Shown here one piece after another: positions 37,013-44,168 of a stretch of DNA of 64,000 bases. Under the pieces are notes generated by a model that was not told where the DNA came from, searched no databases, and saw nothing but the letters and a program-made list of their open reading frames with translations. A program made the translations under genes and the position numbers. Position 1 is the first letter of the stretch. Each line of letters opens with the position of its first letter. The stretch is from Streptosporangium becharense (lineage in GTDB: Bacteria; Actinomycetota; Actinomycetes; Streptosporangiales; Streptosporangiaceae), in the NCBI RefSeq assembly GCF_014204985.1, contig NZ_JACHMP010000001.1, forward strand, positions 3,472,001 through 3,536,000. The letters are read 5' to 3'.

Positions 37013-37147
37013 CTATCCGGGGCATGACGATAGGGAGCTTTTCACCATGCTGCTTCGCCCACCCGGCGAGTCCCCATCCGCACGAATCAGCCTCATGAAC
37101 AAGATCACGGCCAGCCTCGCAAGCAAGACCACCACCGCCTCATTCAC
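37013..37147 (-). CDS. Possible 44-residue membrane peptide coupled to the TadE-like gene
   Basis: A GTG at 37147 overlaps the TGA of the preceding tad gene (GTGAATGA), followed by 44 codons. The product begins with one hydrophobic helix (NEAVVVLLARLAVILFMRL) and a short polar tail (IRADGDSPGG onward). The overlap suggests translational coupling and the helix suits a Tad-linked membrane peptide, but codon use at the tail is less biased and no known family fits. The call is tentative. Confidence 0.3.
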   Translation of the reverse strand: MNEAVVVLLARLAVILFMRLIRADGDSPGGRSSMVKSSLSSCPG

Positions 37148-37595
37148 CGGGACCGGTGATGTGCACGGGCCCCGCACGTGCCCGCGCCGTGACCCGCGTA
37201 CCGCCTGATCCGAACGGCACAGGCAGCGACAGCCATACGGCGGCCTGGACATCGGCTATGCCGTCGTCACCGACGGAGCATCGGGTGATCTCCGCCCCGT
37301 TACCGGCGGCGATCAGTGAGGCCTTCCCACAGCTCTCACCGGGATCGGCGAAGGCCACCCGGGCGGCGGCGAGCGCGCTCAGATCGGCGGCCGCCTGCGC
37401 TTGGTGCCGGGCCACTCTGACCGCGCCGGTGAACACGACCGCCATCACCACCGCGAAGAGCAACGCCGCCAACCCGACGGCCCAGACTGTCGCCGACCCC
37501 CGTTCCCCATCGCCCCGGAAAGGCCCTCCCCCATCGCCCCGCAAAGGCCAGGACATCGTCCTCCTGCCGCATCGGGCGGAACCCTTCATGATCAT
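37140..37595 (-). CDS. TadE/G-like protein of the helicase/secretion neighbourhood type
   Basis: 151 residues from ATG 37595, overlapping the upstream stop by 4 bp (ATGA). An N-terminal hydrophobic segment (GSATVWAVGLAALLFAVVMAVVFTGAVRVARHQAQAAADLSALAAAR) has the conserved form of TadE/TadG-like pseudopilins, with the Gly-Ser-Ala-Thr start typical of this set. One Cys pair follows (GESCGKASL, ITRCSVGD). It corresponds to Rv3654c in M. tuberculosis by position and pattern. It is probably a minor pilin of the Tad apparatus, exported through the membrane. Confidence 0.85.
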   Translation of the reverse strand: MIMKGSARCGRRTMSWPLRGDGGGPFRGDGERGSATVWAVGLAALLFAVVMAVVFTGAVRVARHQAQAAADLSALAAARVAFADPGESCGKASLIAAGNGAEITRCSVGDDGIADVQAAVWLSLPVPFGSGGTRVTARARAGPVHITGPGE

Positions 37596-37963
37596 TGACC
37601 TGCCTCCGGCTCGACGGCGGAGACCGCAGTCGCCCGGACGGTGACCCCTGGAAGAGAGGTGCCCCATTGCGGTCTGACGTGCACCGACACCTCCACCCGG
37701 GCCACATCGGCACCTCGGGTCACCACGACTCGCGCACCCGCCGGGACCGCTGCCAGGACGCTGCTCCGGACCCGCTCCAACGGCTCACCACGCGAGACGG
37801 CCCGAGCCCCCGCACGGGCGGCGTCCACGCACTCGAGCCGGGCCTCGACCGCCGCCACGGCCCATAGTCCGGCCGCCAGCACCACCATCAGGGCAGGCAG
37901 CACCGCGGCCGTCTCAGCGGTCACCGACCCTTTGCACCGGTGGGCGGCGAGCATCACCGCCAC
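37592..37963 (-). CDS. TadE-like minor pilin
   Basis: 123 residues from GTG 37963. The N-terminus is GSVTAETAAVLPALMVVLAAGLWAVAAVEARLECVDAARAGARAVSRGE, the TadE signature in which a Glu-Thr pair precedes the membrane helix, as in type IV pilin processing regions. The rest is a small beta-rich domain without known motifs. It overlaps the next gene by 4 bp and starts 4 bp after the DUF4244 gene, so the three small genes form a compact operon. The counterpart in M. tuberculosis is Rv3655c. Confidence 0.87.
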   Translation of the reverse strand: MAVMLAAHRCKGSVTAETAAVLPALMVVLAAGLWAVAAVEARLECVDAARAGARAVSRGEPLERVRSSVLAAVPAGARVVVTRGADVARVEVSVHVRPQWGTSLPGVTVRATAVSAVEPEAGQ

Positions 37964-37967
37964 GGGG

Positions 37968-38204
37968 TCACCCGGCCACGGTCAGTGCCCGGTTGATCAG
38001 CGCCGTGATCATCTGCTGGACCTCCGAGCTCGTCACCACCTTGAAAAGGAGCGCCGCGAAGGCGCAGGCGGCGATGGTTCCGACCGCGTACTCGGTGGTG
38101 GACATGCCACGCTCACGGTGCGGACCGGTGATCAGCAGCGCCCATCGGGCACGCACCCACCCCGTCAGGTCATGTCGCATGCTGACGGCCTTCATCGGAC
38201 GCAT
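37968..38204 (-). CDS. Flp-pilin-like small protein (DUF4244)
   Basis: 78 residues from ATG 38204, with an ideal AGGAGG five bases upstream. The core is ERGMSTTEYAVGTIAACAFAALLFKVVTSSEVQQMITALINRAL, the DUF4244/Flp-type signature: a short basic leader, the TTEYA processing-type motif and one hydrophobic helix. It is probably the major pilin subunit, processed by a prepilin peptidase not encoded in this window. It begins the promoter-proximal end of the small-gene set; the 696 bp upstream hold DnaA-box-like sequences at 38301-38325. Confidence 0.88.
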   Translation of the reverse strand: MRPMKAVSMRHDLTGWVRARWALLITGPHRERGMSTTEYAVGTIAACAFAALLFKVVTSSEVQQMITALINRALTVAG

Positions 38205-38300
38205 GGTTACCTCCTGAGGTCTTCGCCAGGCACATCGCCCGGCATCAGTGAAGTCAGGCTCTTCCATCGGCTCGCGGCCCAGCGGGGGTGAACGGTGTTC

Positions 38301-38325
38301 TGTGGACAAGTCGAGGTTGTCCACA
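38301..38325. promoter_or_regulatory. Head-to-head pair of DnaA-box-like 9-mers
   Basis: TGTGGACAA-N7-TTGTCCACA, a perfect 9-bp inverted repeat about 100 bp upstream of the pilin start. TTGTCCACA is the preferred DnaA box of streptomycetes and mycobacteria. It could equally be the operator of an unknown palindrome-binding regulator. Confidence 0.55.
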
Positions 38326-38834
38326 ACCTGTGCGCCGTACGACGCCCCCTCGGGAGACCAGTGCTCAGCGAAACGGCCTCCGATGAGGAGGCCAAGCACC
38401 CTTGGTGGCCTCACCGTCTTCGATGAGGAGGCCGTGCGCCCATGATGACCTCTTCCGGAGGAGGCCGGACGGCGTGCGCCTGTTCGCGGTCGTGTCAAGG
38501 CCACGGCGCACCTCCGCGTCTCCCGCGGTGAGCCGGCCGTCTCCCCGACGGGAGGGAACCGGTCGACAGCGGGAGGGAGCCGGCCGACAGGAGGGAACGG
38601 CCGATGGTCTCGCGAGAAGAAAGGAGACCGGCCGGTGGGCCGGTGGAGGAGAGCCAACTGGTGGGGGAATCGGAACAGACCGGTGGGCCGGTGAGGGTAG
38701 GTGCGGAGAAAATCTCCGACGACAGGTGAACCCTGGCCGCCCAAGTGGAGGCCGGTGGTGGGACGTGTGATCATCCGGCCGGGAGATCGTCGGCGGGATG
38801 AACGAGGGTCACGAACGGGGAGCACCTTCGCCGC

Positions 38835-38899
38835 TTGTCCACAGGATGCAACCTCCCCCTGTGGACAACTCGGATATCCAGAGAAAAATCTGTGGATAA
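38835..38899. promoter_or_regulatory. Three DnaA-box-like 9-mers just past tadC
   Basis: TTGTCCACAGG (38835-38845) and CCTGTGGACAA (38858-38868) form a perfect 11-bp inverted repeat, and TGTGGATAA (38891-38899) ends one base before the tadC stop. On the minus strand the inverted repeat could also fold as a hairpin at the end of tadC mRNA. Confidence 0.55.
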
Positions 38900-40072: not shown

Positions 40073-40780
40073 TCAGGCCCGCTGTGCGCGAACCACCAGG
40101 CGGTGGGTCCACCACAGGCCGCAGGCGTCGAGCGCGAGACCGAGGATCAGGCATCCCGCGCCTGCCGGGCCACCGAAGAGAAAATGCAACGGGCGCATGC
40201 CGAGGCCTGCCGCCATCGTGATGCCGAGAACGGGCAGGCCCGCCAGGAGCCGGGCGGTGGCCCGGGGGCCGGCGAGCTGGGCGGTGACATTGCGACGGTG
40301 CGCCTGTGCCTCGCGAAGGGAGGCGGTGACGCGCTCGACGAGGACGGACAGGCCCGCCCCGGTGGTCACGCTGACCTTCCAGCAGGCGGCCAGGGCGTGG
40401 AAAGCCTCGCCGCCCTCCTCGGGAGCGACCGCGAGCAGGGCGGCGGGGACGTCACCTCCGTCTCGTGCCGCCGCGACCAGTGGACGCAGGACCACGGGGT
40501 CGGGAAAACTCGCGGCCTGAACCGCACGGGCCAGCGACTCACCGGCGGTCCGCCCTGCGGACAGCTCGGCCGACAGCCCCTGACACAGCTCGATCGACGC
40601 GGTCCGCCACGCGGCGGCACGCCCCGCAGGCCGAGAGCGGCGGGCGAATCTCTCCCGCAGGGAGTGTGACATGGCCGGACCGCGCCGGTTCATCCGGTGC
40701 AGACGGGTGGTCCCGCGATCGGGGCCGGTCCACAGCCACACCGCCACGGCGGTGAGCGCCAGCACCGCTCCCGCCGTCAT
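40073..40780 (-). CDS. tadB: TadB-like membrane protein (GspF domain)
   Basis: 235 residues from ATG 40780, overlapping tadA by 4 bp (ATGA). An F domain: IELCQGLSAELSAGRTAGESLARAVQAASFPDPVVLRPLVAAARDGGDVPAALLAVAPEEGGEAFHALAACWKVSVTTGAGLSVLVERVTASL, with helices at the N-terminus (AGAVLALTAVAVWLW) and C-terminus (LLAGLPVLGITMAAGLGMRPLHFLFGG and GCLILGLALDACGLWW). It is shorter than many TadB proteins but complete for the family. It pairs with TadC in the inner-membrane platform. The counterpart is Rv3658c. Confidence 0.9.
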   Translation of the reverse strand: MTAGAVLALTAVAVWLWTGPDRGTTRLHRMNRRGPAMSHSLRERFARRSRPAGRAAAWRTASIELCQGLSAELSAGRTAGESLARAVQAASFPDPVVLRPLVAAARDGGDVPAALLAVAPEEGGEAFHALAACWKVSVTTGAGLSVLVERVTASLREAQAHRRNVTAQLAGPRATARLLAGLPVLGITMAAGLGMRPLHFLFGGPAGAGCLILGLALDACGLWWTHRLVVRAQRA

Positions 40781-42102
40781 GGCCCCTCCCTCCGCGCCGG
40801 AGCAGCCGGGCTCTCCAGCGTGGGCGGGCGGAGCGGGCGGCCCGGGGGTGGTGGACCGCCGGTCGTGGAAGAGCGCACCGAACGCGAGGAGGTGTAAGGG
40901 CTGCGGCGGAGGGCGACGGGAAGCAGGACGCCCGGGGCTCGGGCGGCCAGTGTAGGCAGACCGGGGCCGGCGACCACACCTCCGTCCGGGGTGAACGTGA
41001 GAGCCGGCTCGGCGTCGACCAGACCGGAGGGGCGGCGGATCATCATGCAGATCTCAGCGACCCGGCGACGGCCACCGGCGTGGTCGCGGACGAGGTGGAT
41101 CACAACGTCGAGGGCCGCCGCGATCTGGCTGTGGACCGCCTCCCTGCTGAGACCGGCGGCGCAGGCGAGGGCTTCAAGCCTGGGCGGCACGTCGGTCGCC
41201 GTATTGGCGTGCAGGGTGCCGCAACCACCCTCATGGCCGGTGTTGAGCGCCGCCAGAAGGTCGACGACCTCCGCACCTCTGACCTCACCGACCACGAGGC
41301 GGTCGGGACGCATCCGCAGGGCCTGGCGGACCAGGTCGCGCAGGCCCACGCCGCCCGCGCCCTCGATGTTGGGCGGGCGGGACTCCAGGCGCACCACATG
41401 GGGATGGAGCGGCCTCAACTCGGCCGAGTCTTCGACCAGCAACAGCCGCTCACCGGGATCCGCCAGCGACAGCAGGGCCGAGAGCATCGTGGTCTTCCCG
41501 GTTCCGGTGCCGCCGGTGACCAGGAAGGCGAGCCTCGACTCGATCACCGCGGTAAGGACGGGCACGCAGTCGGCCCGGACGGCACCCGCCGCGACGAGGT
41601 TGGGAAGGGTGAAGGTGCACCGGGGTGGCAGCCGCAGGGACAGGCAGGTGCCGTTGGGTGCCACAGGTGGGAGAACCGCGTGGAGCCGGACGCCGCCGGC
41701 GAGACGTGCGTCGACGTGGGGACAGGCGTCGTCCAGGCGTCTGCCGGCGGCCGAGGCGAGACGCTGGGCGAGTCTCCGGAGCGCGTCCTCGTCGGGGAAG
41801 ACGATCTGGGTGAGGCGCAGGCCGCGGCCGTCGTCGACCCACACTTCGCGAGGGCCGTTCACCAGAACGTCGGTGACCTCGGGCTCGGCCAGCAGCGGCT
41901 CCAGCGGACCGGCGCCGATCAGATCGGCGCACAGGACCCGGGCGACCGCCAGGATCTCCGCGTCACCGAGCATCGCCCGCTCGGCACGGAGCGCGACCGC
42001 GACGTGCGCGGCACTGGGCTCGACCCCGGCGTGGGCCAACCGCAACCGGACCGCCTCCACCAGCTCGGGCGGAACGGCGGTGGTGTTCTCAGCCCGTCTC
42101 AT
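40777..42102 (-). CDS. tadA: TadA/CpaF secretion ATPase
   Basis: 441 residues. Walker A GGTGTGKTT at 197-205, the Asp box LLLVEDSAELRPLHPHVVRLESRP, Walker B/His box RMRPDRLVVGEVRGAEVVDLLAALNTGHEGGCGTLHANTATDVPPRLEALA. It powers Tad pilus assembly at the cytoplasmic face of the membrane. The last 45 residues are a Ser/Pro/Arg-rich tail unusual in length. It overlaps both the upstream ssd gene and the downstream tadB gene by 4 bp, so ssd-tadA-tadB are coupled. The counterpart is Rv3659c. Confidence 0.95.
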   Translation of the reverse strand: MRRAENTTAVPPELVEAVRLRLAHAGVEPSAAHVAVALRAERAMLGDAEILAVARVLCADLIGAGPLEPLLAEPEVTDVLVNGPREVWVDDGRGLRLTQIVFPDEDALRRLAQRLASAAGRRLDDACPHVDARLAGGVRLHAVLPPVAPNGTCLSLRLPPRCTFTLPNLVAAGAVRADCVPVLTAVIESRLAFLVTGGTGTGKTTMLSALLSLADPGERLLLVEDSAELRPLHPHVVRLESRPPNIEGAGGVGLRDLVRQALRMRPDRLVVGEVRGAEVVDLLAALNTGHEGGCGTLHANTATDVPPRLEALACAAGLSREAVHSQIAAALDVVIHLVRDHAGGRRRVAEICMMIRRPSGLVDAEPALTFTPDGGVVAGPGLPTLAARAPGVLLPVALRRSPYTSSRSVRSSTTGGPPPPGRPLRPPTLESPAAPARREGP

Positions 42103-43145
42103 GCGTCCGGCCCGAGCACGGCGTCGAGGAACGAGCCGCAGAACCGGCCAAGGGAGGTGCGGCGACCGGTCGGGGGGACGTCACCGCGGTTGAGCATGGC
42201 GGTGAGGCGTGGCTGATCGGGGATGCTCCCGGCGTACGGCACGCCGAGTGAGCCGGTCACCACCTCATGGTCCAGCACGCCGTCACGCACGATGGCCCGC
42301 ACCTCGCCGGTGTGCTTACGCAACCCGGCGAGCACCTGGGCCGCGGCGAGCACCCCCCGCACGTCGGCGGTGACGACCAGAAGGGTGCTGGTGGCCCGGC
42401 CGAGCACCTCCACCGCGGCCTGGTCGAGGTAGCGGGGCAGGTCGACGACCACCAGATCGAAACCGCGCTGCCCGGCTTCGAGGACCGAGCGCATGGCCTC
42501 GGCGGGGACCGGCTCGACCTCGCCCCGGTGGAAGGAGAGCACCGTCAGCCCGGCGAAGGTCGGCAGCGCCGCCTGGAGCGCGGTGAAACTGACCCGCCCC
42601 TCCCTGGCGACCAGGTCGGACCAGCGCGCCCCGTCGCACTCCTCCTGGCCGAGGAGGACGTCCAGGCCACCACCGAGCGGGTCGGCGTCGATGAGGAGGG
42701 TGCGGAGGCGGCGCCGCGAGGCGGTCAGCGCCAGTGAGACGGCCAGCACGCTGGCTCCGGCGCCGCCGCGCCCGGCCGCGACGCACACCACCGCTCCGGG
42801 CCGCGTGGGCGGCTCCACGGCGTCGGCGAACTCGTCGACGAGCCGCCGCTCGGCTGAGGGCAGCTCCAGCACGGCCTGCGCACCCACCGCGACGCACTTG
42901 CGCCACATGTCGGGATCTTCGGGGGTGCGGGTGGCGAGGAAGACACGAGGACGGGGTGGCGGCCCGACGGCGGCCAGGGCGTCGGCCACGTCACCGCCGA
43001 CCACCACCAGCGGAGCACGGTTCCAGTAGGGGCGGGCGTGCGCGGGCACGTGGGTGACGTCGAGTTCCGCTCCGGCCGCGGCAGCGACGCGGAGTAGATC
43101 GTCAAGCAGATCATGGTCTTCGGTGATGACCAGCGGGCGGTCCAC
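42099..43145 (-). CDS. ssd: Septum-site-determining-like protein Ssd (CpaE/MinD family)
   Basis: About 348 residues from GTG 43145, with GGGAGG 5 bp upstream; longer starts add a Pro/Gly-rich leader. Residues 1-120 are an atypical receiver-like domain (PLVITEDHDLLDDLLRVAAAAGAELDVTHVPAHARPYWNRAPLVVVGGDVADAL). Residues 120-348 are a MinD-type ATPase (VVCVAAGRGGAGASVLAVSLALTASRRRLRTLLIDADPLGGGLDVLLG; FDLVVVDLPRYLD). The P-loop reads GRGGAGASV, where the normal GKT is GAS, so ATP binding may be altered. Rv3660c (ssd) affects septation in mycobacteria; as CpaE it would help place the Tad machine. Confidence 0.9.
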   Translation of the reverse strand: MDRPLVITEDHDLLDDLLRVAAAAGAELDVTHVPAHARPYWNRAPLVVVGGDVADALAAVGPPPRPRVFLATRTPEDPDMWRKCVAVGAQAVLELPSAERRLVDEFADAVEPPTRPGAVVCVAAGRGGAGASVLAVSLALTASRRRLRTLLIDADPLGGGLDVLLGQEECDGARWSDLVAREGRVSFTALQAALPTFAGLTVLSFHRGEVEPVPAEAMRSVLEAGQRGFDLVVVDLPRYLDQAAVEVLGRATSTLLVVTADVRGVLAAAQVLAGLRKHTGEVRAIVRDGVLDHEVVTGSLGVPYAGSIPDQPRLTAMLNRGDVPPTGRRTSLGRFCGSFLDAVLGPDA

Positions 43146-44168
43146 GGGTGCCTCCCTGGGACGCGGGAGCCCGCCGGGGTCACAAGGCGTGTTCGCGCTC
43201 TCGGCGGGGCTCCCGGGGTTGCGGGAGGCCCAGCTTCCGGGACGGGCCCCCCTACCCGGGAAGCCGAACACCATTCTGTGGACAGACCTGCGGCAAGCGC
43301 CTCCGCCTGTGGAAAACCGCGGCGACTCGAAGGCCGGGACGGCGGGGGAAAAGGGGCGACCCCCGCCGGGGGGGAGAGCGGGGGTCGCCGAGCGGTCCGG
43401 CTCTGGGGGGGTAGAGCCGGTCCCGTTTCAGAAGAAAGCTTTCAACAGCCGACCGGAGCCTGGCAAGGGGATCGCAATGCAAACCCATGCACAGTTACTC
43501 CAGTATGCGGAGATACCACCTCATGCTGCCCGATCCACGCAAGTTTCGTCGAGGAGAAATCTTTGATTTCTGCTGGTTTTTTAAGGTAACGACCCGGTCT
43601 CCGTGACATCGGGCTGCGATCACTCCCATCCCCGGCTCCGATGGCGACCACTCTCGGTGAGCGCATCCGGCGTCTCGATCCGGCCCGTCCGGACGACGAT
43701 CGGCGGCCTCGCAGAGCGAGAAGACGTACGGGATGGTTCATCCTTTTATGCCCCCCGATCCGTAAAGGTCTTGACGCCGGGGGTTCCCACCAGCCTGGAT
43801 CCGGCGTACAAAGGTTGCACGGACCACCTGTCCGGGCACGACCCCGGGTACCCACGCGCCGTCAGCCGCGGGAGGCACTTTGGATCGGGCTTGTCCCGCT
43901 CCAATGATTATGAGGTGCACGCTTGGTAACCCGGTGGAGCGTGCCGGCGACGGCGCCCCATCCCAGGGGCGTCGTCCGCTTTACTGGGGGCGGATGTCAC
44001 GGATGTCCCTGATCGACAGCGTTCCATGATCAACCACGCCCCATGATCCCGGCAACCGGCCCAACTCCTCCCCGGCCGGACCCGGCTCACCCCGAACCAG
44101 CCGGACCATGGCGACCACGTCCGCCGGACGGCGCGTTCGACGCCCTCGCCCTCGTTGCCCCAAGGCTC
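43146..44168. other. 1-kb region upstream of ssd, no clear gene
   Basis: I see no convincing protein or RNA gene. From left: DnaA-box-like TGTGGACAG (43277-43285) and TGTGGAAAA (43308-43316); GC hairpin GCGACCCCCGC / GCGGGGGTCGC (43356-43388); hairpin GGCTCT / AGAGCC (43399-43418); and a lower-GC stretch from about 43420 to 43600 with a small intrinsic-terminator-like form AGAAATC-TTT-GATTTCT followed by TTTTTT (43555-43582). Short frames (for example 29 codons from ATG 43477, 108 codons from 43603) lack coding character. An untranslated RNA is possible. Confidence 0.5.
43356..43418. terminator. Two adjacent hairpins upstream of ssd
   Basis: GCGACCCCCGC / GCGGGGGTCGC (43356-43366, 43378-43388) and GGCTCT / AGAGCC (43399-43404, 43413-43418). 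They lie between the Fic-like gene and ssd and could end read-through from the former, or act in the ssd leader. Confidence 0.45.

Follow-up and report, generated by a model that had tools for sequence, protein, structure and literature searches.

The tadC-flp gap of the Streptosporangium becharense tad locus holds a group of 9-mers that look like DnaA boxes, and it raises the question of whether these boxes serve DnaA or another regulator. We analyzed the gap within the window, the whole stretch of 64,000 nucleotides at positions 3,472,001-3,536,000 of the 7.82-Mb genome, and in related genomes.

The five boxes of the tadC-flp gap

The first-pass annotation had listed five exact 9-mers of the DnaA-box type, and we recovered all of them as the sole exact TTRTCCACA matches in the window. 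TTGTCCACA occurs exactly at 38301-38309 (-), 38317-38325 (+), 38835-38843 (+) and 38860-38868 (-), and TTATCCACA occurs exactly at 38891-38899 (-). Their assignment to the tad operon was correct; the boxes occupy the tadC-flp gap on the minus strand, in which TadA and Ssd/TadZ are recognized by NCBIfam and Flp as DUF4244. The features of the locus are the following:

37140..37667 (-): TadE/G-like pilus gene (Pfam PF13400); this ORF overlaps the preceding gene, and the true start is probably later than listed
37592..37963 (-): TadE-like minor pilin gene 3′ of flp, named by position and sequence (ORF list)
37968..38204 (-): flp, Flp pilin (DUF4244, Pfam PF14029), with ATG at 38204 and the ribosome-binding site AGGAGG
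38256..38261 (-): −10-like hexamer GAGCCT of the putative flp promoter, with A at +46 and T at +50 from the first base of the core
38290..38306 (-): core of the putative flp promoter, TCCACAGAAC-ACC-GTTC, exact match, whose first bases are the box at 38301-38309
38317..38325 (+): TTGTCCACA in the orientation opposite to the core, starting 19 bases upstream of it and presumed to be the upstream half-site of the flp promoter
38835..38843 (+): tadC-side box 3, TTGTCCACA, forming an inverted repeat with box 2
38860..38868 (-): tadC-side box 2, TTGTCCACA, 31 bp from box 1, without GAAC-N3-GTTC
38891..38899 (-): tadC-side box 1, TTATCCACA, one base past the tadC stop codon
38901..39764 (-): tadC, named by operon position, with relatives in 53 of 60 genomes
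40073..40780 (-): tadB-like membrane protein gene, named by position (ORF list)
40777..42102 (-): tadA, pilus ATPase (NCBIfam TIGR03819)
42099..43145 (-): tadZ/ssd, septum site-determining protein Ssd (NCBIfam TIGR03815), with a GTG start at 43145
43232..43237 (-): −10-like hexamer GAAGCT of the putative tadZ promoter, from the aligned sites
43266..43282 (-): second core copy, TCCACAGAAT-GGT-GTTC, with one mismatch, 5′ of the tadZ-tadA-tadB-tadC operon
43308..43316 (-): upstream half-site TTTTCCACAG of the putative tadZ promoter, 31 bp before the box of the core

When the window was shuffled with its dinucleotides preserved, TTRTCCACA appeared 0.13 times on average and twice at most, and none of 100 shuffles reached five. 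Thus, the cluster lies far above chance, as had been proposed. Genome-wide, we counted 38 exact TTRTCCACA (22 for the reversed-pattern control), among which the five-box group is the densest; every other 600-bp stretch holds two or fewer. Seven of the 38 lie within promoters that carry the element described below (1194677, 2056735, 2366342, 2366373, 3510301, 3510317 and 5685700), the tadC-side boxes account for three more and dnaN-dnaA for four. Elsewhere in the genome, a Ser/Thr protein kinase gene has two exact TTATCCACA upstream of it at a spacing of 13 bp (C1:3344167 and 3344180, L040), and exact-box pairs of the same 13-bp spacing are present in G002, G007, G013 and G015.

Four of the boxes had been described as two head-to-head pairs. 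The pairing itself is real, but the two pairs are not alike in orientation: 38301-/38317+ diverge (TGTGGACAA-N7-TTGTCCACA), whereas 38835+/38860- converge (TTGTCCACA-N16-TGTGGACAA). At 38330-38830, the enlarged gap carries imperfect GC-rich repeats of the gatgaggaggcc type, seen by eye, and no convincing gene was found in this segment. The tadC-flp gap ranges from 96 to 1677 bp across species. We also agree that the locus is not an origin of replication. oriC lies between dnaN and dnaA at about 3,932,730-3,933,290, some 422 kb away, and the tadC-flp gap lacks this dnaA-dnaN context.

A longer element at the flp start and before other DNA-uptake genes

The flp-side box at 38301 is part of a longer element, TCC[A/C]CAGAAC-N3-GTTCGG. 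In 37 of 46 family loci, the core TCCACAGAAC-N3-GTTC, with up to two mismatches allowed, precedes the flp ATG by 88-120 nt (of 51 family loci, five without flp within 2.2 kb were set aside, and three loci outside the family were excluded). The same test gave 0 of 4407 windows elsewhere in those loci. This spacing holds over gaps of 96-1677 bp, and an A at position 46 and a T at position 50 from the core start (A46/T50) are present in 34 of the 37 loci that carry the core. First alignments had suggested the tadC stop as the anchor of the boxes; only some loci fit, and the flp start proved the better anchor.

Conservation of the gap in close relatives had been put forward as a check, and its outcome is split. 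The flp-side element is kept, but the tadC-side boxes are absent from four of the 16 Streptosporangium genomes (G001, G003, G007 and G009), where the flp element is still there. In three genomes (G005, G008 and G011), both flp and tadZ are without the element at one mismatch or fewer; G008 has two sites in all, one of them with an assigned target.

Searching the S. becharense genome with TCCACAGAACNNNGTTC, we found five exact sites, 11 sites at up to one mismatch and 37 at up to two, with nine for the reversed pattern at two mismatches. Eight of the 11 sites lie 5′ of flp, tadZ, comEA-comEC, two ssb genes, and genes for a DUF4192 protein, an M23 peptidase and an NlpC/P60 protein. The yraN-comM-dprA operon is preceded by the element at two mismatches. 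Two further sites (5441479 and 6391947) have no assigned target. The last is on a second contig of 37 kb with a phage portal gene, and the gene downstream is without known function. This copy is exact (C2:27399-27415, L165) and stands 5′ of two small genes, the second of which matches helix-turn-helix-17 below threshold; a phage or plasmid may here exploit a competence signal of the host.

In 16 Streptosporangium genomes, we found 122 sites at up to one mismatch compared with five for reversed controls; as the genomes are related, such site counts are not independent. An automatic tblastn test (E ≤ 1e-6, inferred start at −150 to +450) placed 87 of the 122 sites 5′ of nine target operons. The first 120 sites gave 86 assignments, namely DUF4192 (13), NlpC/P60 (13), flp-tadE (13), ssb_b (12), tadZ (11, each in a different one of the 16 genomes), M23 (8), ssb_a (6), yraN-comM (6) and comEA (4). 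The two sites added afterwards comprise one before DUF4192 and one without a target. A hand list of the first 120 sites assigned 91; it placed sites before comEA-comEC in eight genomes and before a response regulator once. Of the 35 sites without an automatic target, looser tests put five (L189, L202, L221, L236 and L257) before comEA-comEC or NlpC/P60; another site, L267, was absent from the hand list and was confirmed as NlpC/P60. Performing Pfam and NCBIfam searches on representatives, we identified ComEA, ComEC, DprA, ComM/YifB, UPF0102, SSB, DUF4192, M23, NlpC/P60, Flp, TadA and Ssd. Thus, one common cis-element stands 5′ of both DNA-uptake and DNA-processing genes, as in a natural-competence regulon.

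The same nine targets were found in other genera of the family. One or more sites at up to one mismatch are present in 99 of 120 genomes family-wide, with about 510 sites against 20 for reversed controls; 30 loci and 40 regions were looked at more closely. In a class-wide sample, for which 24 loci were viewed, CCACAGAACNNNGTTCG occurred in 13 of 28 genomes of the same family compared with 3 of 268 others, and tblastn with Streptosporangium queries recognized no target in these three. Four genomes from other families of the order hold four one-mismatch sites.

Some copies point to further genes. Genome G334 has 24 sites at up to one mismatch, including two tandem pairs 29 bp apart (L322 and L323), and its regulon is possibly enlarged by DUF4865, GST-like and ComF-like genes. 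The ComF similarity is weak (L330, NCBIfam comF E 1.9e-10, under the curated cut-off), and several ORFs after target-less sites of this genome, probably misread frames, were left out. Six downstream ORFs (L165:5473-5727, L251, L318, L308, L342 and L336) gave no Pfam match; those of L318, L308, L342 and L336 are candidate new competence genes. Among the target genes examined, no DNA-binding regulator was recognized. A single-domain response regulator gene is divergent from the NlpC/P60 gene (L166:4409-4801 and L260), and in G014 one response regulator is preceded by an element of its own. This protein is a possible signalling part of the regulon.

Promoter geometry and the proposed competence regulon

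We aligned 88 of the sites. Possession of the core was the criterion for choosing them, and its conservation therefore follows from the choice; no such criterion applied to the first three bases, the upstream half-site or the −10. The M23, NlpC and DUF4192 labels in this alignment come partly from reading the ORFs. The A46/T50 pair was present in 77 of 87 assigned sites compared with 9 of 35 sites without an assigned target. At other tested offsets, the pair was found in at most 10 of 86 assigned sites, compared with 76 of 86 at the usual one. Hence, the element sits at a promoter position with constant geometry, as the sites of a regulon would. No −35 stood out among the 88 aligned sites. A direct CCACAG half-site at −30 or −29 was present in 44 of 86 assigned sites. 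Taking both orientations (CCACAG or CTGTGG), an exact half-site occurs in the 50 bases preceding the core at 69 of 86 assigned sites and at 9 of 34 without an assigned target.

In activator-dependent promoters, the regulatory element stands beside the −35 region and the −10 lies at a set distance from it. The copies described here have this look, and activation is inferred from it. We consider it highly probable, judging from sequence, that the flp-side boxes are an element of an activator-dependent promoter, about ten copies of which define a natural-competence regulon in Streptosporangium and its family. The candidate regulator would bind TCC[A/C]CAGAAC-N3-GTTCGG, often assisted by a second CCACAG half-site, usually some three helical turns upstream. 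It would recruit RNA polymerase to a −10 (nAnnnT), which in most copies starts 45 bp from the core start, at a promoter without a conserved −35. Once active, it is predicted to switch on the Flp pilus (flp and tadZ-tadA-tadB-tadC), the DNA receptor and channel (comEA-comEC), the DNA-processing genes (yraN-comM-dprA and two ssb) and the wall hydrolases (M23 and NlpC/P60) together with DUF4192. The element, its targets, the −10 spacing and the position relative to flp are observed directly; from them we infer that the regulator activates rather than represses, that there is only one and that its output is DNA uptake. The ssb, yraN and M23 genes may serve roles other than competence.

This regulon comes close to an alternative that the first-pass annotation had offered, namely a switch of pilus genes by a palindrome-binding regulator. 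The companion ideas of a replication-coupled pilus switch and of titration fare worse, as neither would explain the element and its fixed −10 before comEA, dprA/comM, ssb and the cell-wall hydrolase genes.

Alternative readings, known systems and implications

Replication could still enter through the regulator itself. It is unlikely that DnaA, or a protein with adopted DnaA-like recognition, acts with a palindrome-binding partner as the master activator of Flp-pilus DNA uptake in mycelial actinomycetes. In its strict form, where DnaA and a partner reading GAAC-N3-GTTC activate the competence regulon and couple DNA uptake to the replication state, we regard the idea as quite doubtful. The element has its TCCACAG core and its upstream half-site in common with the DnaA box, and of 49 direct upstream half-sites, 23 match TTRTCCACA exactly. 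In two further genera of the family, where dnaA was identified by Pfam Bac_DnaA (L139:1500-3017 in G219 and L141:1500-3017 in G245), the core CCCACAGAACACCGTTCG lies 159 nt (G219) and 228 nt (G245) before the dnaA start as read. However, both dnaA sites are without a −10 at the usual offset. The same stretches also carry other DnaA-like boxes, and the core there may be a piece of an origin. The first three bases of the box are variable, and in 11 of 12 aligned cases the SSB_b sites read TCCCCAG or TCCTCAG, variants that DnaA is expected not to tolerate; GAAC-N3-GTTC is no part of a DnaA box. Were such a replication-linked switch true, competence would follow replication status, and the core 5′ of dnaA in the two relatives would close the loop.

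The annotation had raised a DnaA-titrating cluster as one possibility, and we weighed the boxes as a DnaA-binding locus, for titration or for datA-like damping of re-initiation, 422 kb from oriC. Consensus boxes clustered beyond chance and outside oriC are what titration clusters of the datA/DBC type present, and the five exact boxes compare with 0.13 expected and outnumber the two in the dnaN-dnaA gap. The tadC-side boxes 1 and 2 retain TTRTCCACA in all 10 aligned sequences. Initiation-repressing DnaA-box clusters are reported from S. coelicolor and B. subtilis, as cited in the available text of PMC5742627 and PMC4585315, the latter describing them as near oriC. Against this reading, the flp-side box tracks the flp start codon and belongs to the longer promoter element, the same element stands 5′ of competence genes at scattered places, and the tadC-side boxes are missing from a quarter of the genus genomes, as given above. 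Among the 88 aligned sites, only 19 have an exact TTRTCCACA, 34 fit TTNTNCACA and 15 end in CCCA for CACA. Titration as the main reading was dropped on the flp-start tracking and the core-element results. We judge a DnaA-binding locus a slim prospect, and the five boxes are probably not mainly a DnaA-titration site. Like datA-like clusters, the gap holds several exact TTRTCCACA boxes within one non-coding stretch; it differs in that the flp-side boxes are in a longer promoter element repeated 5′ of DNA-uptake genes and in that most element copies are not intact DnaA boxes.

For true DnaA control, dnaB (Pfam DnaB) offers a better candidate site: upstream of it stand two exact TTATCCACA (C1:3977428 and 3977483, L046) at a spacing of 55 bp. 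Exact-box pairs with this spacing are also present in G002, G013 and G015.

The three tadC-side boxes deserve their own account. We aligned them from eight of the nine long-gap genus genomes that have them and from two Planobispora loci; G004, with an extra box, was left out, and the long gap was measured for some genomes only. Box 1 is invariantly TTATCCACA in 10 of 10 sequences, and box 3 retains TGTGGA in 10 of 10. These boxes are without GAAC-N3-GTTC and, in the window, without a −10. In species with a short gap, among them S. saharense (L054), S. carneum (L052) and S. violaceochromogenes (L096), the flp promoter or its place is at approximately this point, and so the boxes may be vestigial, form an additional site for a regulator or be genuine DnaA sites. 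Probably they represent a remnant of the same system or an additional site of it, from which flp was shifted off as the gap grew. They may bind DnaA.

RNA hairpins had also been suggested; in this reading, the inverted repeats would set the tadC:flp transcript ratio. The tadC-side boxes could indeed fold: 38826-38876 (-) reaches −23.2 kcal/mol (z −4.25), and box 2 and box 3 pair in 97% of cells, dropping to 35-49% on sliding. Yet this pairing is no better than that of shuffled partners (205 of 500 reach it; 173 of 500 for covariation). Boxes 1 and 2 are direct repeats that cannot pair together, the inverted partner at flp is missing in several relatives, and the flp-side z is just −1.77. With covariation not above shuffles, we rejected the hairpin as very unlikely.

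That the palindrome is a LexA (SOS) operator and the regulon a DNA-damage regulon is highly improbable: the half-sites resemble those of LexA (CGAAC/GTTCG), and ssb and dprA could suit a damage response, but the actinobacterial SOS box has a spacer of four (GAAC-N4-GTTC) against three bases in both window copies, on which we rejected it; the genome has 20 separate CGAAC-N4-GTTCG places, none by position a competence site. Ten of these places were examined, and one immediately precedes a gene reading as ruvC. The pilus, comEA-comEC and wall hydrolase targets are not typical SOS genes.

The activator-dependent competence promoter has parallels elsewhere. Competence elements such as the ComK box of Bacillus, the CIN/com box of Streptococcus and the CRP-S sites of Haemophilus/Vibrio define regulons in which one short element stands 5′ of scattered pilus, comEA-comEC, dprA, comM and ssb genes. 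The regulon proposed here would resemble them in having one short element 5′ of scattered DNA-uptake genes; it differs in sequence and phylum and in having an Flp (tad) pilus for a type IVa or Com pilus. In Micrococcus luteus, Flp pili are required for transformation (PMC4322843), and a helix-turn-helix-17 protein beside a pilus gene was proposed as a com-gene repressor (PMC8467076). This protein family is a candidate for the regulator of the element described here. In the available text of these papers, the tad genes and comEA-comEC appear as the actinobacterial DNA-uptake machinery, as here; the role was shown there by knock-outs. The consulted parts of the M. luteus accounts of comEA-comEC regulation (PMC4322843, PMC8467076 and PMC12849477) contain no shared promoter element. 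In the titles and abstract openings of open-licence literature, including work on Streptomyces, Streptosporangium and DUF4192, we found no such Actinomycetota competence regulon.

The available text of a paper from 2026 describes the upstream regulatory cascade as unidentified, and competence control in Actinomycetota counts as an open question (PMC12849477). The locus also carries a caution, in that 9-mers resembling DnaA boxes can belong to another regulator. A promoter element shared by DNA-uptake genes points to a coordinated programme of natural transformation, in which the DUF4192 protein, the M23 peptidase and the NlpC/P60 protein become added candidate competence factors. The 17-bp element with its −10 at a set distance, which stands 5′ of much of the DNA-uptake gene set, could serve as a bait for the regulator and as a reporter for inducing conditions, and it could be used to predict which actinomycetes might be transformable.
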